From Candidatus Aminicenantota bacterium (GTDB taxonomy: Bacteria > Acidobacteriota > Aminicenantia > Aminicenantales > Aminicenantaceae), in assembly GCA_029882525.1 (NCBI GenBank), contig JAOUKO010000003.1, positions 1-49,621 of the forward strand: a stretch of 49,621 bases of DNA, written 5' to 3'. The notes beneath the pieces are model-generated. The model was not told where the DNA came from, searched no databases, and was given only the letters and a program-made list of their open reading frames with translations. Position numbers and translations under genes: made by a program. Below, one piece after another: positions 12,781 to 41,354 of the stretch; the first letter of the stretch is position 1; each line of letters starts with the position of its first letter.

Positions 12781-12862
12781 TGTTCTCTTCCAGATAGTGG
12801 GGGTAAATGCACGGGAATGGATAAAGCAACCTTCCCTATTTAGCCTTCCCGAACCGTTCCCG
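12781..12862 (+). repeat. R3 repeat, left end only
   Basis: Matches the left end of the full R3 copy at 28575: TTCTCTTCCAGATAGTG, then GCACGGGAATGGA, then a segment with TTTAGCCTTCCCGA. The similarity then stops, so the element is truncated. The remainder of this gap (12863-13055) contains nothing recognised. Confidence 0.6.
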
Positions 12863-17514: not shown

Positions 17515-17543
17515 CTTATAACAAAGGCAGCTATCGATGTCAA
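17515..17543 (-). promoter_or_regulatory. strong sigma-70-type promoter for the GH116 gene
   Basis: On the minus strand TTGACA (17543-17538), exactly 17 nt, then TATAAG (17520-17515). The start near 17508 leaves a 46-nt leader. Confidence 0.65.
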
Positions 17544-17613: not shown

Positions 17614-17786
17614 GTCAACTTGGAGGGGGAACTGACTTCCCCCTTCCAACGCTCGCTTCCGCTCGCTGCCTCCCCTTCTCGGGCGGGGCATGAACCCACG
17701 CCCTGCGACCAAGGAGGCATATCCCCTTTCATTCCCCGACGATCGTTTCCCCGCGGCAAGCCGCGGGGCATATCTTCCGATCGTCA
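17614..17786 (+). repeat. R1 repeat, copy A (four hairpins)
   Basis: About 173 bp, nearly identical to copies at 19124 and 23180. It begins GTCAACTTGG and ends near GATCGTCAAGG. Hairpins in order: TTGGAGGGGGAA with TTCCCCCTTCCAA; a stem of GGGCG/CGCCC type at about 17690; a degenerate form of the CCAAGG-CATA hairpin; and CCCCGCGG-CAAG-CCGCGGGG at 17749-17768, itself flanked by GACGATCG and CGATCGTC. It lies between the stop of the VWFA-related gene (17791) and the GH116 promoter. The sequence from 17463 to 17613 holds only that promoter. Confidence 0.85.
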
Positions 17787-17790
17787 AGGA

Positions 17791-19080
17791 CTAACGGGCA
17801 AAATAGCCAAGCCGATGCTCGACTCTGAAGTTTTTATCTTTCACCTTCACTTTGATCTCTTTAAACTTCCCGTCGCTTTTGTAGTTTTGGGGTGTATAGT
17901 AAAGAAGGTAGTAATTCTCAGATGCCCCCAAAGCCTGCTGGAATAAGAAGGCTGAATTTGCAGAACTTGCTGAATATCCGCCCGTTGCTTTCGCCATCTC
18001 ATGAAAAACTGAGAATATGTCTTCAGAATGTTCTTCCATGCGGATTCCGAATACATGTTGAGGCGGTCTGGAAATAAACAGAAAATGAATGGAAATGGAT
18101 GAATCTGCGTAAGCCTGCTTTATGCGTTCCACATCCAGAGTGATTTCTCGCCTATAAAAATCAAAAAGCCCTGAAATGGTATGAATAATATTCGGTCTGT
18201 CCTGGAATATAGCCAAATACTGATCGAGGATTTTCGGGTCAATCTGGGGGATGTATTCCTTTTCATAGAACATGAAAATATATTTCTGCCCCTCTTTATC
18301 TTTAATCAAATCCGAAAATTCTAAAAATTTCTTCTGTTCGAAACTCCTTATGTTTTCCAGCCTCCCCAGGAGGTCCGCATACCTCGTGATTTGTTCATCG
18401 ATGGACATGCCTTCGTATTGGCCGGTTGAAAAACCGTCCACATACCTAGTTGTGAATGCTACGCTTCCAGCTTCTGTCCCTTCTGTTGCTTCATCCGTAA
18501 CAGCCCCGAATGACTGGATAGCTGAAGCTAATGACTTTGCTAAGCGAACCATGTCATCGAGTATATCCCTGTACTCTGAGTTCCCGATCATGGCATCCCT
18601 TCTCAGTATCCCTTTAAGCTGATTCACAATATCTTCTTTGGATAAAACCTCTAATGTCTTGCCCTTCAGCCTGTATGTTTTCATGGAAGTGATAACTGTC
18701 AGATTATCACCGGGAACCAGTATCTCATGGACAAAATACTCGACTGCATCTCCAAGCTTAGCCGTGTATTCGTTGATCTCGAAGAAAAGATAGAAATTTC
18801 TTGAGGTCTCGGGTGCAAACCTCTTGTTTTCCTCCCTTCTTTCTATACTCCTCTTTTTTACAAGATAAACAGCCTCTACCCTCTGAGGAATCCCGTCCTC
18901 TAATACTTCAAAATCATTGAGGGTGAGGTCATCGATGAACCTGTTACCCTGAAAGACTCTTACAGGGACTTCCACATTGATGACCATGGTCTCTTCAGAA
19001 AGTTTTTGATCAGAGACCTGTTGAGAAAAAACAGAAAGGCCAAGGATGACTATTGCGCCTATTATTGTCAATTTTTTCAT
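17791..19080 (-). CDS. VWFA-related secreted protein, paralogue 1
   Basis: 429 residues; ATG with AGGGG upstream. Signal peptide 1-19 ending FSQQ. The N-terminal segment INVEVPVRVFQGNRF, LNDFEVLEDGIPQRVEAVYLV is the opening of the 'VWFA-related, Acidobacterial' family, followed by a von Willebrand A-like fold (FYLFFEINEY, PGDNLTVITS) and a C-terminal region ending NYYLLYYTP then KVKDKNFRVEHRLGYF. The classic DxSxS metal site is not intact, so metal-dependent adhesion is doubtful. Function is unknown; these proteins are exported and often multicopy. A 67-bp-spaced paralogue lies upstream (19348-20553) beyond repeat R1. The gene is bracketed by two direct copies of R1. Confidence 0.8.
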   Translation of the reverse strand: MKKLTIIGAIVILGLSVFSQQVSDQKLSEETMVINVEVPVRVFQGNRFIDDLTLNDFEVLEDGIPQRVEAVYLVKKRSIERREENKRFAPETSRNFYLFFEINEYTAKLGDAVEYFVHEILVPGDNLTVITSMKTYRLKGKTLEVLSKEDIVNQLKGILRRDAMIGNSEYRDILDDMVRLAKSLASAIQSFGAVTDEATEGTEAGSVAFTTRYVDGFSTGQYEGMSIDEQITRYADLLGRLENIRSFEQKKFLEFSDLIKDKEGQKYIFMFYEKEYIPQIDPKILDQYLAIFQDRPNIIHTISGLFDFYRREITLDVERIKQAYADSSISIHFLFISRPPQHVFGIRMEEHSEDIFSVFHEMAKATGGYSASSANSAFLFQQALGASENYYLLYYTPQNYKSDGKFKEIKVKVKDKNFRVEHRLGYFAR

Positions 19081-19099
19081 TTCTAACCCCTACTTTTAT

Positions 19100-19128
19100 T
19101 AAATAGCAGAGAGAGACAGGCAAGTCAA
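19100..19128 (-). promoter_or_regulatory. promoter candidate for VWFA-related gene 1, -35 supplied by R1
   Basis: On the minus strand TTGACT (19128-19123) lies at the very end of repeat R1 copy B, followed by 17 nt and TATTTA (19105-19100). The leader would be about 13 nt and still include the Shine-Dalgarno site. Confidence 0.4.
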
Positions 19129-19280
19129 CTTGGAGGGGGAACTGACTTCCCCCTTCCAACGCTCGCTTCCGCTCGCTGCCTCCCCTTCTCGGGCGGGGCA
19201 TCAACCCACGCCCTGCGACCAAGGGGACATACCCCCTTGGATCCCCCCGACGATCGTTCCGATCGTCAACTTGGAGGGGA
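19124..19280 (+). repeat. R1 repeat, copy B, internally deleted and joined to an R2-like tail
   Basis: Starts with the same GTCAACTTGGAGGGGGAA as copy A and keeps hairpins 1, 2 and 3 (CCAAGGGG/CCCCTTGG). The CCCCGCGG hairpin is lost: the flanking GATCG motifs are fused as CGATCGTTCCGATCG, consistent with deletion between short direct repeats. At 19265 a second GTCAACTTGGAGGGG begins but changes at once into GAGGGTCTTGGCAAGGA and GGAGGAACC (to about 19310), which resembles the inside of R2. The rest, up to 19347, holds nothing recognised. Confidence 0.8.
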
Positions 19281-19347
19281 GAGGGTCTTGGCAAGGACGC
19301 GGAGGAACCCGGGCTTTATCAGGTATAAAGAAGATTTGAGTCGGCCT

Positions 19348-20553
19348 CTAATCGGCAAAATAGCCAGACCGGTGAAGTATCCTGAAGTCTTTATCCTTGA
19401 CCCTGATCTTTATCTCCCTGAATTTTCCGTCCTTCCTGTAACTCGACGGACTATAATAAAGGAGATAGTAGTTTTCAGATGCCTCAACAGCATTCTGGAA
19501 CAAGGAAACGGGATTAGCAGAACTCTCGGAAAGACCTCCTGTCGCCTTCGCTATCTCATTGAAGGCGTTGAATATATCTTCAGAATGCTCAACCATGAGG
19601 ACGCCCGGGATATAAGCTGCGGGCTTGGCGAAGAATAAAAAGTGGATAGAAATCGAAGAATCCGCATACGCTTGTTTGACTTTATCAATATCGAAAGAAA
19701 TCTCTCTCCTGTAAAAATCAAAAAGCCCCGCCAGAGTGTGGCTTATATCCTCCCTGTCTTGATTCAAACTCATGATTTGGTTCAAAACCCGGCGCTCGAT
19801 CTGGGGAATGTATTCTCTCTGGTAGAAGAGAAAGACGTACTTCTGTCCTTCCTTATCCCGTAAATATTCTGCAAATTCTAGGAGCTTTTTCTGGTCGACC
19901 GTTCTGATCTGTTCTAATTTTTTCAGGAGCTCGGCATACATCGAGATTTGGACGTCAAGCTCCAACCCCTGGTATTCAGCCGTGCTGAATTCATCCTGGT
20001 TGCTCGAGGCAGACGAGAGCGCCTTTGCCAAACCGGCAAGGTCATGGACAGCATTCCTGTATTCAGAGCTTCCTGCGAGAGTATCCCTTCTCAATATTCC
20101 GATGATCTGACTCACGATTTTCTCCCTGGGAAGGGTGTCCAAAATGTCCGGCTTCATCCTGTAGGTCTTCATCGGAGTAATGACCGAGAGGTTATCCCCG
20201 GGGAAGAGGACGTTATTCACAAAATAATCCACTGCCTTGCCGATTCTTGGAGTGTATTCGGTGACCTCAAAAAAGAGATAAAAATTTCTCGTTGTCTCGG
20301 GCACGAATCTTTTCTTTTCCTCCCTTCTCTCAATGGTTCTCTTCTTTATCAAGTAGACCGCTTCTACTTTCTGAGGGATTCCATCCTCGAAGACCTCAAA
20401 ATCGTCTATAGTCAAGCTGTCAATGAAGATATTTCCGTTGAACACCCTGACCGGGACTTCAATGTTTATCACCAATGATTCGTGAGTGATCTCTTGGGCA
20501 AAAATTGTTAGGCCAAAAGCAAGTATTCCGATAACAATTATCTTCTTTAACAA
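19348..20553 (-). CDS. VWFA-related secreted protein, paralogue 2
   Basis: 401 residues from a TTG start supported by AAGGAG 9 nt upstream; no ATG fits. Signal peptide 1-20 (FGLTIFAQ). It aligns with paralogue 1 throughout: VINIEVPVRVFNGNIF, DDFEVFEDGIPQKVEAVYLI, NFYLFFEVTEYTP, PGDNLSVITPMKTYR, and a closing NYYLLYYSP and RVKDKDFRI. The main difference is a shorter middle, where paralogue 1 has an extra acidic stretch near residues 190-205. The family is exported with unknown function. Gene order and orientation (paralogue 2, R1, paralogue 1, R1) suggest duplication of a gene-plus-repeat unit. Confidence 0.8.
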   Translation of the reverse strand: MLKKIIVIGILAFGLTIFAQEITHESLVINIEVPVRVFNGNIFIDSLTIDDFEVFEDGIPQKVEAVYLIKKRTIERREEKKRFVPETTRNFYLFFEVTEYTPRIGKAVDYFVNNVLFPGDNLSVITPMKTYRMKPDILDTLPREKIVSQIIGILRRDTLAGSSEYRNAVHDLAGLAKALSSASSNQDEFSTAEYQGLELDVQISMYAELLKKLEQIRTVDQKKLLEFAEYLRDKEGQKYVFLFYQREYIPQIERRVLNQIMSLNQDREDISHTLAGLFDFYRREISFDIDKVKQAYADSSISIHFLFFAKPAAYIPGVLMVEHSEDIFNAFNEIAKATGGLSESSANPVSLFQNAVEASENYYLLYYSPSSYRKDGKFREIKIRVKDKDFRILHRSGYFAD

Positions 20554-20598
20554 TCCAAGGCTCCTTGTTCTTCAAATCTAAATCTATGGAATATGGAT

Positions 20599-20628
20599 AT
20601 TATAGAGTAGAGATGAAAAAGTTAGCAA
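20599..20628 (-). promoter_or_regulatory. promoter for VWFA-related gene 2
   Basis: On the minus strand TTGCTA (20628-20623), 18 nt, then a consensus TATAAT (20604-20599). The start near 20592 leaves a leader of about 39 nt. Confidence 0.55.
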
Positions 20629-20653
20629 TCTATTTCCTCAGAATCAAGAAAAA

Positions 20654-20716
20654 AAGGTCAGGTCCCCATTCGCCACTTTCTTATCATGAAAATTGGGGAC
20701 AGTCTCCAATTCGCCC
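20654..20716. repeat. R4-like foldback remnant
   Basis: GGTCAGGTCCCCATTCGCC and, 25 bp later, ATTGGGGACAGTCTCCAATTCGCC. The GTCCCC/GGGGAC parts can pair, and the wording GGGGACAGTC resembles the other R4 palindromes in this window. It separates VWFA-related gene 2 from the flavoprotein gene. Confidence 0.4.
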
Positions 20717-20725
20717 AGGGAAACC

Positions 20726-22105
20726 TCAGCCTTTTTTCCTCAGCTCCTGGAGGTTTCCGAGGGTCGATTGGATCACTTCCGGCAGGGCCGGATGAATATG
20801 CATCCCGTTGATGATGGGCCTCACGGTTCCATCTATCGACATGGCGTTGATCACTTCTTGAATGAGGATGGGCGCATAAGGTCCGATCACGTGGAATCCT
20901 AAAATCCTCCCGCTGTTTTTCTCGATGATGATCTTGGCAAAGCTATCCTCCTCCATCATTGCCTCTCCCTTGGCTACTTCTGAGTATTTCGCCTTGCCGA
21001 CCAGGATATCATGATTTTTCCTGGCTTCTTCCTCTCCTAACCCGACAGAAGCGACCTGCGGATAGGAAAACACGGCATGTGGAACTTTATCATAATCCAC
21101 CTTGTTCCTCTCGCCGTGTATGGCGTTGTGCCAGACGAGATCAGCTTCTCTGTTGGCCGAATGTCTGAACATTTTCTTTCCGATCGCGTCTCCGAAGGCC
21201 CAGATATTCACCTTGCTTGTCTCCAGGTAATCATTGACTGCGATGTATCCCCTCTGATCCACTTTCACTCCAGTTTTCTCAACTTTCAAGAGGTCCGCGT
21301 TGGACTTTCTTCCAGCAGCCAATAAGATCCTTTCGGCGCTGAATTCCCTCTCTTCTCCTGAAACCTTATCCCTGGTGATAACTTTCATCTCCTCTTTTCC
21401 CCTTTTGACTTCCCGGGCCTCAGTGTTGGTGAAGATATCCATGCGTTTTCCCATTTTCGTCTTCAACAGCTCAGAAACCTCTGGCTCTTCATCGCGCACC
21501 AGTCTCCCCGCCCGCTGGAGGATGGTGACTTTGGTCCTCATTGAAGCGAAGAAATGCCCGAATTCAGCAGCGATGTATCCTCCGCCGATGATGATCAGGC
21601 TCTCTGGTTTCCGGGTGAGATCCAGGACATTCTCGTTGGTCAAATAATCAACATTCTCTATTCCCTTTATCGGAGGTATCAGCGGTCTGGCCCCAGAGGT
21701 GATAAATATCTTCCTTCCTTTTATCCTCTCCCCTTCAACTTCCAGAGTGTAATCGTCTGCGAAGGAGCCCAAACCCTCATAAAAATCCAATTCCTCCGTG
21801 TGTTCAATACCTTCTCTGATATGAGTCTGACTTTTCTCGATCGTTCTTTTCATCCTCTCCATTATGGCCTGAAAATCGACCTGTTTTATTTCAGCATGAA
21901 TACCCAGCTTTGCCGCTTCCTGAATCTCGACCACTCTATCTGCCGGAAAAATCAACATCTTGGTCGGAATGCATCCCACATTCAAACAGGTTCCTCCCAG
22001 AGGACCCTTGTCCACCAGGGCGACGCTCAAGCCATGGGCCAACGCTTGCTCGACAACGATCGCCCCTGCTCCGGAACCGATCACGATCACATCATACTCT
22101 TTCAT
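20726..22105 (-). CDS. dihydrolipoyl dehydrogenase-family flavoprotein
   Basis: 459 residues; ATG start. FAD-binding motif IGSGAGA (10-15) at the N-terminus, redox-active disulfide Cys40/Cys45 in GTCLNVGCIPTKM, NAD-binding IIIGGGYIAAEFG in the middle, and the C-terminal His438-x4-Glu443 couple (HIHPALPE) that acts as the proton relay in lipoamide dehydrogenase. Length fits the family (about 460). It probably oxidises dihydrolipoamide or a related dithiol with NAD+. No 2-oxoacid dehydrogenase E1/E2 or glycine-cleavage gene is next to it, so a mercuric-reductase-like or other disulfide reductase role cannot be excluded. Upstream lies repeat R2. Confidence 0.8.
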   Translation of the reverse strand: MKEYDVIVIGSGAGAIVVEQALAHGLSVALVDKGPLGGTCLNVGCIPTKMLIFPADRVVEIQEAAKLGIHAEIKQVDFQAIMERMKRTIEKSQTHIREGIEHTEELDFYEGLGSFADDYTLEVEGERIKGRKIFITSGARPLIPPIKGIENVDYLTNENVLDLTRKPESLIIIGGGYIAAEFGHFFASMRTKVTILQRAGRLVRDEEPEVSELLKTKMGKRMDIFTNTEAREVKRGKEEMKVITRDKVSGEEREFSAERILLAAGRKSNADLLKVEKTGVKVDQRGYIAVNDYLETSKVNIWAFGDAIGKKMFRHSANREADLVWHNAIHGERNKVDYDKVPHAVFSYPQVASVGLGEEEARKNHDILVGKAKYSEVAKGEAMMEEDSFAKIIIEKNSGRILGFHVIGPYAPILIQEVINAMSIDGTVRPIINGMHIHPALPEVIQSTLGNLQELRKKG

Positions 22106-22143
22106 CCCGTTCTCCCTAAATGGATTCTGCCATTATGGAAGGT

Positions 22144-22321
22144 AAGCATTTCTATCCCCGTGACAGATAATTATGAAGGTGTAATCTGCCACAGCGCCGG
22201 TTCCCCTCCATCCAAGCCAGGACCCTCCTACCCTCCTCCACGGGCTTCAGATGAAGAGAAACCGTCGCTCCACTTCTGAATAAAGTCAGATGTTTCCCTC
22301 ATCACAGAAATGGAGATTCTT
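22144..22321 (-). repeat. R2 repeat, copy 1
   Basis: About 178 bp with imperfect inverted ends (AAGCATTTCTATCCCCGTGACA against AAGAATCTCCATTTCTGTGAT; shorter cores align). The centre folds back: AGCGCCGGTT with AACCGTCGCT, one mismatch. Same family as 33580, 41185 and 42870; reverse orientation relative to the last two. Confidence 0.75.
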
Positions 22322-22402
22322 ACATATGGCAATTTTTTATGGACGAATGAATTTCATTTTGTTAGAATATGTGATACTATTAATATTACTATTATGAACG
22401 AA

Positions 22403-22479
22403 GGGCGTCAGCGTGAGCGGTGGTTATTCATAATTAACTCCTTACCATCCTCCTTTTCCCCTCGGAAAAGCTGACGCCC
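22403..22479. other. 77-nt foldback, possible structured RNA
   Basis: GGGCGTCAG (22403-22411) pairs perfectly with CTGACGCCC (22471-22479). Directly next to the right arm is a second perfect hairpin, CTTTTCC-CCTC-GGAAAAG (22453-22470). The region lies in the 418-bp gap between the flavoprotein and NYN genes. It matches none of the R1-R4 families. No T-tract follows on either strand. Confidence 0.45.
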
Positions 22480-22523
22480 AATACCTTCAATAAGGGGAAA
22501 TTTAACCAGAATTTAATGAAGCC

Positions 22524-23057
22524 TTAGCGGCTGCTCCGGATCAAATACTTCTGAGGATTCTTGTCCATATCTATGAAATTATCCGCTTCCTCGATCAGCT
22601 TCTGTGAGCTGGATTTGCCGAAGGCCAGGATTTCCACGTAGCAGCCCAGGGCATGCTTGAGATGCTGGACCAAAGGCACATAGTCTCCGTCTCCGCTGAC
22701 CAGGACGATGGCATCCAATTTTGAGGCCAGCTCTATGGTGTCCATGGCTATCCCGATATCCCAGTCGCCCTTCTTGGCCCCACCGAAAAACACCTGAAGG
22801 TCTTTTGCTTTGACTTCATAGCCCAAACCCTTCAGCGCTTCAAAAAAATTGACTTCATCCTTGACATCTGCCTTTATGACGTAAGCAATGGCCCTGATCA
22901 AACTCCTCCCCCTGACAGCTTCCTTGAGCAGCGTTTTGAAATTGACCTTGGCTTTGTATATGTTTCTGGCGGAATAATACATATTCTGCACGTCCACGAA
23001 GATTCCCACTCGCTGTTCCTTGTAGAGTTCGGGCGTTGATTTTTTACTCATTGACAA
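22524..23057 (-). CDS. NYN-domain (LabA/DUF88-type) PIN-like nuclease
   Basis: About 177 residues. TTG at 23057 has GAGAGG 5 nt before it; an ATG at 23051 is the other option. The NYN fold is clear: GIFVDVQNMYYSA (first acidic residue), KGDWDIGIAMDTIELA, and VLVSGDGDYVPLVQHL, giving the acidic cluster of PIN/FLAP-like RNases. Members of this family are predicted or shown to cleave RNA, or act in regulatory complexes such as LabA. The protein is soluble and single-domain. Promoter candidate at 23156-23184, whose -35 box is the end of R1 copy C. Divergent from the sigma factor gene. Confidence 0.85.
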   Translation of the reverse strand: MSMSKKSTPELYKEQRVGIFVDVQNMYYSARNIYKAKVNFKTLLKEAVRGRSLIRAIAYVIKADVKDEVNFFEALKGLGYEVKAKDLQVFFGGAKKGDWDIGIAMDTIELASKLDAIVLVSGDGDYVPLVQHLKHALGCYVEILAFGKSSSQKLIEEADNFIDMDKNPQKYLIRSSR

Positions 23058-23155
23058 TCCATCCTCTCGATGAATGCACAGGCTTTGCCGATATTCCCAC
23101 CTGCTTTTTCAGGGGGGCAATGCAGCCATCTTCCTTATCTCGGAAAGACACCTGT

Positions 23156-23184
23156 TTTATATCACCGCTTTTCTCTCAAGTCAA
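23156..23184 (-). promoter_or_regulatory. strong promoter for the NYN gene, -35 supplied by R1
   Basis: On the minus strand TTGACT (23184-23179) at the end of R1 copy C, exactly 17 nt, then TATAAA (23161-23156). The start near 23149 leaves a leader of about 92 nt. Confidence 0.6.
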
Positions 23185-23352
23185 CTTGGAAGGGGAACTG
23201 ACTTCCCCCTTCCAACGCTCGCTTCTGCTCGCTGCCTCCCCTTCTCGGGCGGGACATGAACCCACGCCCTGCGACCAAGGGGGCATACCCCCTTGGATCC
23301 CCCGACGATCGATTCCCCGCGGAAAGCCGCGGGGCATACCATCCGATCGCCA
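23180..23352 (+). repeat. R1 repeat, copy C (complete)
   Basis: The best-preserved copy. Hairpin 1: TTGGAAGGGGAA (23186-23197) with TTCCCCCTTCCAA (23203-23215). Hairpin 2: GGGCG to CGCCC (23247-23269), with a one-base bulge. Hairpin 3: CCAAGGGGG-CATA-CCCCCTTGG (23275-23296), 9 bp perfect. Hairpin 4: CCCCGCGG-AAAG-CCGCGGGG (23315-23334), 8 bp perfect. It lies between the divergent NYN and sigma-factor genes and is followed by a short R4-like GCCTGACCCCAAT. Confidence 0.85.
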
Positions 23353-23390
23353 ATCAGCCTGACCCCAATGGTAAATTTTTATTTTTTCGT

Positions 23391-28574: not shown

Positions 28575-28884
28575 GATTCTCTTCCAGATAGTGTGGGCAA
28601 AATACACGGGAATGGAAGAAGCGACCTTGAAGATTTAGCCTTCCCGAGTCGTCCACCGAGGGAAGCCGATGAAATCGGCCGCCGAGTATGTTTGAGCACG
28701 TGAGGATCAAACTGATGAAAAATAATAAAGTACGGACATCCGGTTGAAAGTGACATGTCTTGAGTGCGGAGTTACGCAGGCGCCGAGGGGGACGGTGAGG
28801 GAATGGCGTTAAAAATCTGAAGGGAGCGATGCCATTTCCGTGTATTTTAGTCATTAAATTACCCGCACAAAATGAAAGAGAACC
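28575..28884 (+). repeat. R3 repeat, full-length copy
   Basis: 310 bp. Left end GATTCTCTTCCAGATAGTG, AAAATACACGGGAATGG; right end, read in reverse, GGTTCTCTTTCATTTTGTG, AAAATACACGGAAATGG. The inverted ends match over about 35-40 bp, with a 12-bp extra segment in the right one. The 200-bp interior has no coding capacity that I trust. Partial copies: 12781, 27203 and 35540. It fits a non-autonomous (MITE-like) mobile element; no transposase is seen. Confidence 0.75.
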
Positions 28885-33579: not shown

Positions 33580-33757
33580 AAGCACCTCTATCTCCGTAAC
33601 ATTTTATTATGAAAGTGTAATTGTTAGCAGCGGCGGTTCTGCTTCATCCTGGCCAAGACCCTCCCACCCACCACCATGGGCCTCGGATGGAACAGAACCG
33701 CCGCCGCACTTCTCCATCAGGCCAGATGTTTCCCTTATCACGGAAATAAAGATGCTT
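33580..33757 (-). repeat. R2 repeat, copy 2
   Basis: About 178 bp. Ends AAGCACCTCTATCTCCGTAAC and, in reverse, AAGCATCTTTATTTCCGTGA. The foldback stem is GCGGCGGTTCTG (33630-33641) with CAGAACCGCCGC (33693-33704), 12 bp perfect. Compared with copy 3, an A-T pair is replaced by G-C on both arms. Its end lies 20 bp upstream of the -35 box at 33560. Confidence 0.8.
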
Positions 33758-35539: not shown

Positions 35540-35612
35540 CCTCTCTCATTTTATGTGAGTGGAATACACGGGAATGGAAGAAACGAGCTTGATGATTTAG
35601 CCTTACCTAACC
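35540..35612 (+). repeat. R3 repeat, left-end fragment overlapping the tsaD stop
   Basis: CTCTCTCATTTTATGTGAG, AATACACGGGAATGGAAG, and ATTTAGCCTTACCT follow the R3 left-end order. The last part covers the tsaD stop codon (35603-35605). The rest of the gap up to 35409 shows nothing else. Confidence 0.55.
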
Positions 35613-41184: not shown

Positions 41185-41354
41185 AAGCATCTTCTATGAT
41201 GGGAAATATCTGACTAATTGAGAAGTGCAGCGACGCTTCTACTCCATCCGAAGCCCATGGTGGAGGGTGGGAGGGTCTTGGCTAGGATGGAGGGGAACCG
41301 TCGCTGTAACAGATTACACCTTCATTATTAATTGTCACGGAAATAGAGATGCTT
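41185..41354 (+). repeat. R2 repeat, copy 3
   Basis: 170 bp, inverted ends AAGCATC...TCTAT and, in reverse, AAGCATCTCTATTTCCGTGA. Foldback: CAGCGACG (41228-41235) with CGTCGCTG (41299-41306), and inside it CTCCATCC (41242-41249) with GGATGGAG (41285-41292). It fills most of the gap between lepA and tatA. Confidence 0.85.

Follow-up and report, generated by a model that had tools for sequence, protein, structure and literature searches.

A repeat of Candidatus Aminicenantes as a probable non-autonomous IS200/IS605-type element that inserts at TTGAC^T and restores the -35 box of resident promoters

The DNA analysed here (the window) comprises positions 1 to 49,621 of contig JAOUKO010000003.1 from a Candidatus Aminicenantota bacterium (assembly GCA_029882525.1). 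It contains three copies of a dispersed repeat, R1, one end of which reads outward as a -35 promoter box. The best explanation, and in our view a very probable one, is that R1 belongs, as a non-autonomous element, to the IS200/IS605 type of insertion sequences (IS) and that it inserts at TTGAC^T (the caret marks the junction) and in doing so restores the -35 box of promoters that were already resident. An earlier note on this DNA had located the copies at 17614, 19124 and 23180 in one orientation, as they are indeed found in the sequence; we refer to them as copies A, B and C. Approximately 30 copies of a 174-nt block were found in the genome to which the window belongs (G000, Candidatus Aminicenantes; a 3.5-Mb assembly of 508 contigs, 91.6% complete), and most of them were 92-99% identical to the 174-nt consensus. 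Exact R1 matches among GTDB genomes were located on contigs mostly titled Candidatus Aminicenantes or Candidatus Saccharicenans. R1 was also present at L076 and L081 (JARYMI01), in a metagenome-assembled genome titled 'Clostridiales bacterium', a title that looks wrong.

Read on the minus strand, R1 has the form TTGAC^GATCGG...hairpins...GTTGAC^T, in which the element itself is 169 nt long and non-coding. The copies have sharp, fixed ends and their flanks are otherwise unrelated. On the plus strand GTCAAC starts nearly every copy that retains this end; one copy has ATCAAC, and in a few this end is truncated or changed. Across 15 full copies these first 6 nt showed no variation, whereas the last 5 nt, the GTCAA next to R1, showed a variation of 6.7% per base, double that of the interior. 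Of the two pentamers, therefore, one seemed to be part of R1 and the other part of the target. The pentamer adjoining GATCGG in full copies is TTGAC-like, with variants, and the base 3' of the right end was T in 28 of 30 copies.

Two R1 copies sit inside another dispersed repeat, R3, and other R3 copies within the genome provided base-exact empty sites. At the first site TTAACT^GTCACGGAAATAG (which starts GTCACGG) corresponds to the filled TTAACA^GTCAAC-R1-GATC^GTCACGGAAATAG, and at the second TTAATATGA^GTTGAGAAG corresponds to TTAATATGA^GTCAAC-R1-GATC^GTTGAGAAG. At both sites nothing had been duplicated by the insertion, and the target remained on the side of the left (GATC) end. As the two ends differ within each filled site (GTCAA and GTCAC in one, GTCAA and GTTGA in the other), the GTCAA standing left on the plus strand belongs to R1. 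When joined R1 flanks were compared with all fetched DNA, no empty sites outside R3 were detected. R3 itself is partly palindromic and occurs in both orientations in many genome copies, three of them in the window (22144-22281, 33580-33720 and 41217-41354).

To judge from sequence comparison, predicted promoters at copies B and C, and at no fewer than four copies elsewhere in the genome, take their -35 hexamer from the right end of R1. We compared the genes downstream of R1 with those of relatives without R1 at the site and assessed significance by shuffles. For the NYN gene at copy C the predicted promoter consists of TTGAC from R1, the adjacent T, 17 nt and TATAAA (23156-23184, minus strand). 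The window sequence TTGACTTGAGAGAAAAGCGGTGATATAAAACAGGT corresponds to TTGACTTGATAGAGAAGGAGTGATATAAAACAGGT in the relative G007, where TTGACT-17-TATAAA is uninterrupted, and 25 of 29 positions outside the hexamer were identical (0/20000 shuffles). In front of rpsP nearly all of the 29 family relatives listed carry TTGACTt-aaaattt-TATTATC, and in G000 R1 is fused at that very box; the promoter regions of G000 and G001 were identical at 44 of 53 positions (0/20000 shuffles). At cysS, TTGACTCTGAAGATAGGAATCTTTAATAATA in G002 corresponds to TTGACTCTTGAGATAGTAATCTTTAATAATA in G000, with 36 of 41 positions identical (0/20000 shuffles), and a small gene on contig C64 matched G002 at 22 of 34 positions (1/20000 shuffles). 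The first VWFA-like gene, at copy B (TTGAC from R1 plus T, 17 nt, TATTTA; 19100-19128, minus strand), was compared with its R1-free ortholog in G012, which has TTGACA-17-TATTTT, and a gene on C363 with G007; both agreements were moderate (approx. 1/100). Because the R1-free relatives carry the same -35 and -10 hexamers at the same register, the promoters predate R1. By these alignments R1 entered them at TTGAC^T and restored the -35 box with its own end. The '-35 box' at the R1 end is the predicted right cleavage site of the element, equal to its target. The rebuilt promoters, all of them predicted, are presumably active.

A search of 60 relatives revealed perfect matches of 23-25 nt to the left hairpin of R1, in pairs approx. 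560 nt apart, and in G055, G045 and G044 such pairs flank Y1_Tnp (IS200) genes (E ~1e-40). The left end of these IS200 elements is TTGAC^GAA in further copies of G056 and G052, with TTTAC as the target in other genomes. Their right ends consist of the hairpin, three bases and TTGAC (or TTTAC, TTCAC, TTGAT), and the next base was T in 12 of 12 distinct ends. By sequence, then, R1 and the autonomous IS200 elements of the same order (Y1_Tnp loci L053-L055, copies L246-L257) have in common the hairpin CCCCGCGGCTTGCCGCGGGG, the target TTGAC (or TTTAC), the end TTNAC, the following T and a left end starting with G. They differ in that the IS200 encodes TnpA, carries the same hairpin at both ends and has an unrelated interior, while R1 is gene-less and has another hairpin at its right end. 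R1 thus appears to be a composite, non-autonomous IS200/IS605-type (Y1) element, and this transposition type is well supported. We infer that R1 is mobilised in trans, and likewise which transposase moves it, a Y1 enzyme. Y1 TnpA was found in 10 of 14 genomes tested, including G002 of the same genus, where it is of a longer type flanked by repetitive extragenic palindromic (REP) sequences; TnpB (PF07282) was found in none of the 14. No R1 sequence was present at the loci of REP-associated tyrosine transposases (RAYT; L056-L072).

Several observations weigh against this assignment or the promoter comparison. No Y1 transposase was found in G000, as far as its 508 contigs and 91.6% completeness reach. 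The left hairpin of R1 matches that of IS200 but the right-end hairpin does not, and a derivative made of the ends only should have the same hairpin at both. In G055 the hairpins of R1 and of the resident IS200 differ by compensating changes. Finally, two of the six promoter comparisons were only moderately significant.

L255 (G052:C110) is a solo derivative of approx. 45 nt, consisting of the IS200 left end, one hairpin and the right end TTGAT with nothing between. GGGGCC(T/A)GGCCCC hairpins of REP-like type flank a Y1 (RAYT-like) gene in G002 (L056) and also adjoin truncated R1 copies in G000 (L017, L041).

Other origins of R1 have to be weighed against the IS200/IS605 type. Most copies have GTCAA at both ends, as would a miniature inverted-repeat transposable element (MITE) of a DDE transposon that duplicates the 5-bp target GTCAA. 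At both empty sites, however, only one target copy was present, the ends of the filled sites differed, and no terminal inverted repeats were seen in R1; a DDE-type MITE with target duplication was thus ruled out at these two sites, and for R1 as a whole we give this origin almost no credence. A rolling-circle (IS91-like, Y2) derivative would fit the absence of target duplication and the hairpin ends, since both are also features of IS91-like elements, and G000 does carry an intact Y2_Tnp gene (C92:10684-11172) that could move it. Near the Y2 genes tested (L237-L241), whose element ends were not delimited, there was no R1-like sequence, and it is the IS200 copies that have hairpin, target and +1 base in common with R1, so that we regard a Y2 origin as very improbable. 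A broken Y2 (IS91-type) transposase gene is also present in G000 (C55:15515-17363). The fold of R1 raises the possibility that it is primarily a structured RNA or terminator gene that was spread as a repeat, with mobility incidental. R1 folds far better than shuffled sequences (z -6.4 to -7.5), on either strand as DNA and on the minus strand as RNA, with subterminal hairpins at both ends. Its interior is common to diverged elements of many genera, and 10 of its 29 consensus pairs show compensating changes that preserve the stems. Yet hairpins in single-stranded DNA are needed by IS200-type elements in any case, R1 matched no Rfam family (a scan of the window returned tRNA only), there is no T-run at its end and no bias in its orientation to genes. 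We therefore consider an RNA function as its main nature unlikely.

The earlier note had described R1 as a portable -35 module, always placed upstream of a gene, and such a module would recruit chance -10 hexamers and be kept or placed to drive the genes. Part of this description held. All three window copies have a minus-strand gene on their GTCAAC side (GH116, the VWFA-like gene and NYN), TTGACT-17-TATAAA (23184-23156) and TTGACT-17-TATTTA (19128-19100) are exactly as described, and R1 ends do form the -35 hexamer in predicted promoters. The observation also goes beyond chance, as the block recurs through the genome and outward -10 hexamers peaked at the 17-nt spacing: 5 of 30 copies had matches of at least 5/6 there, while no other spacing between 5 and 60 gave more than 2. 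In addition, the neighbouring gene pointed away from the end in all 7 copies with a -10 of at least 5/6. However, the same -35 and -10 already exist in relatives without R1, by which the idea that R1 brings the promoter is largely refuted. With genes called by our own open reading frame caller on the fetched contigs, the gene on the GTCAAC side pointed away in 19 cases and towards R1 in 11 (P=0.20; 16:11 without the window copies), and within 150 bp the ratio was 8:8. Such random orientation is what the earlier note itself had named as speaking against its reading. A good -10 accompanied 7 of 30 R1 copies, which is not clearly different from 21 of 169 intergenic TTGAC sites (P=0.10) or from 6 of 59 TTGACT sites (P=0.09); at coding TTGAC sites the count was 6 of 661. 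A null model of flanks at random offsets is misleading for such matches, because ordinary intergenic TTGAC sites often are -35 boxes. A preference of R1 for promoters beyond this intergenic background is suggestive only. The placement data can be explained by insertion at any intergenic TTGAC if insertions into coding sequence are lost, with an extra preference being possible. We concluded that a module placed to drive genes is an improbable account of R1. The earlier note had also proposed that R1 ends one transcript and starts the next, with copies A and B just after a gene stop. This position applies to copy A (3 bp) and fits copy B poorly (87 bp), and no evidence in support of a terminator was obtained.

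R1 can be compared with several characterised systems. Some IS elements carry an outward -35 in their terminal repeat and form hybrid promoters with a chance -10; their end reads as a -35 like that of R1, but they make a new promoter whereas R1 restores an existing one. The insertion site of IS608 lies 3' of TTAC, and this tetranucleotide stays in the flank on the left (TTAC^C in ~70%); ISDra2 integrates at TTGAT^G with ~90% specificity (PMC5934647, PMC2806898). R1 resembles both in its insertion 3' of a fixed target of 4-5 nt kept on the left, in the strong +1 preference and in the subterminal hairpins, and differs from them in the target itself, TTGAC^T (PMC5934647, PMC2806898). Palindrome-associated transposable elements (PATEs) are short and gene-less, have IS200/IS605-type palindromic ends and are moved in trans (PMC7290912); they keep both parental ends, while R1 has only one hairpin in common with IS200 and in addition a conserved structured interior. 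REP/REPIN sequences, which go with RAYT, are like R1 short intergenic hairpin repeats tied to Y1 proteins. They are 20-40 nt long and tagged by GTAG/CGTC (PMC3733652), and R1, with its 169 nt, GATC/GTTGAC ends and fixed TTGAC target, does not belong to them. In the literature searched, which included the ISDra2/IS608 sources and mostly excluded subscription journals, we found no description of an IS200-type element restoring a -35 box.

Within the window all R1 features are on the minus strand. Copy A (17614-17782; 169 nt, boundaries from the empty sites) has its left end at 17782 and its right end at 17614. The genomic target TTGAC lies outside the element at 17783-17787, the left-end hairpin CCCCGCGGCTTGCCGCGGGG, identical to the IS200 hairpins of relatives, at 17749-17768, and the right-end hairpin TTGGAAGGGGGAA-gtcag-TTCCCCCTCCAA at 17620-17649, just inside GTTGAC. 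Copy A is not within any promoter, and GH116 has, as the earlier note had stated, its own promoter TTGACA-17-TATAAG (17515-17543), which is independent of copy A and present in G012. Copy B (19124-19264) is shortened to 141 nt by an internal deletion at the left-end hairpin. An older R1-like fragment (19265-19285) supplies its TTGAC target with its right end (CTCCAAGTTGAC), and by sequence a single -35 box seems to have received two insertions and to have been restored each time; tandem R1 copies sharing TTGAC were found here and at L043 and L044 (G057, G042). Copy C (23180-23348) is of full length, 169 nt, and its target at 23349-23353 now reads TTGGC (consensus TTGAC). Two tandem VWFA-like paralogues, with proteins 57% identical and no Pfam match, occupy 17791-20553, and the pair is conserved in G012. 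Two R1 copies elsewhere (L024:7035-7056 and L012:6652) touch a gene at its 3' end or extend into it, such that R1 provides the stop codon (GGGGGAACTGA, or TA^G). A third repeat family (..CACGGGAATGGAAGAAGCGACCTT..TTTAGCCTTCCCGA..) lies at 12784-12850, 28579-28645 and 35541-35607 of the window and also at L014:12617-12793, L015 and L016; in places a diverged R1-like core whose ends are different comes after it, and the same type occurs in G007.

The ends, target, +1 preference, lack of duplication, hairpin and target in common with IS200, and pre-existing promoters documented above suggest how R1 may move. A Y1 transposase supplied in trans would cleave a single strand at two places, behind the TTGAC at the left end and behind the TTGAC that terminates R1 at the right. 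The single-stranded element would then be inserted 3' of a TTGAC target, preferably before T, without target duplication. Since TTGAC^T has the sequence of a -35 hexamer, promoters would receive some of the insertions, between bases 5 and 6 of the -35. There the right end of R1 would give TTGAC anew, followed by the T, spacer and -10 that were present before. The core promoter would thus be kept, with only the DNA upstream of the -35 replaced by R1.

The promoter would survive R1 because target, element end and -35 box have the same sequence, which accounts for a probably essential gene tolerating a transposon within its promoter. What looked like a regulatory module becomes an effect of target specificity, and repeat-borne -35 boxes should be read as new promoters only with caution. 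Target choice of IS608 is set by base pairing, and R1 offers a testable case in which the target choice of an IS200-type element coincides with a sigma-factor recognition site. More tentatively, and with some doubt on our side, an IS200-type lineage of Aminicenantia may have come to use the -35 hexamer as its target, with a replica at the right end, so that insertion into promoters (including those of rpsP and cysS) would do the core almost no harm, although the regulatory DNA upstream would be exchanged. If true, this would be a promoter-sparing strategy with a logic comparable to that of IStrons, which are self-splicing, and where a site is used again, as at copy B, several elements could pile up behind a single -35.

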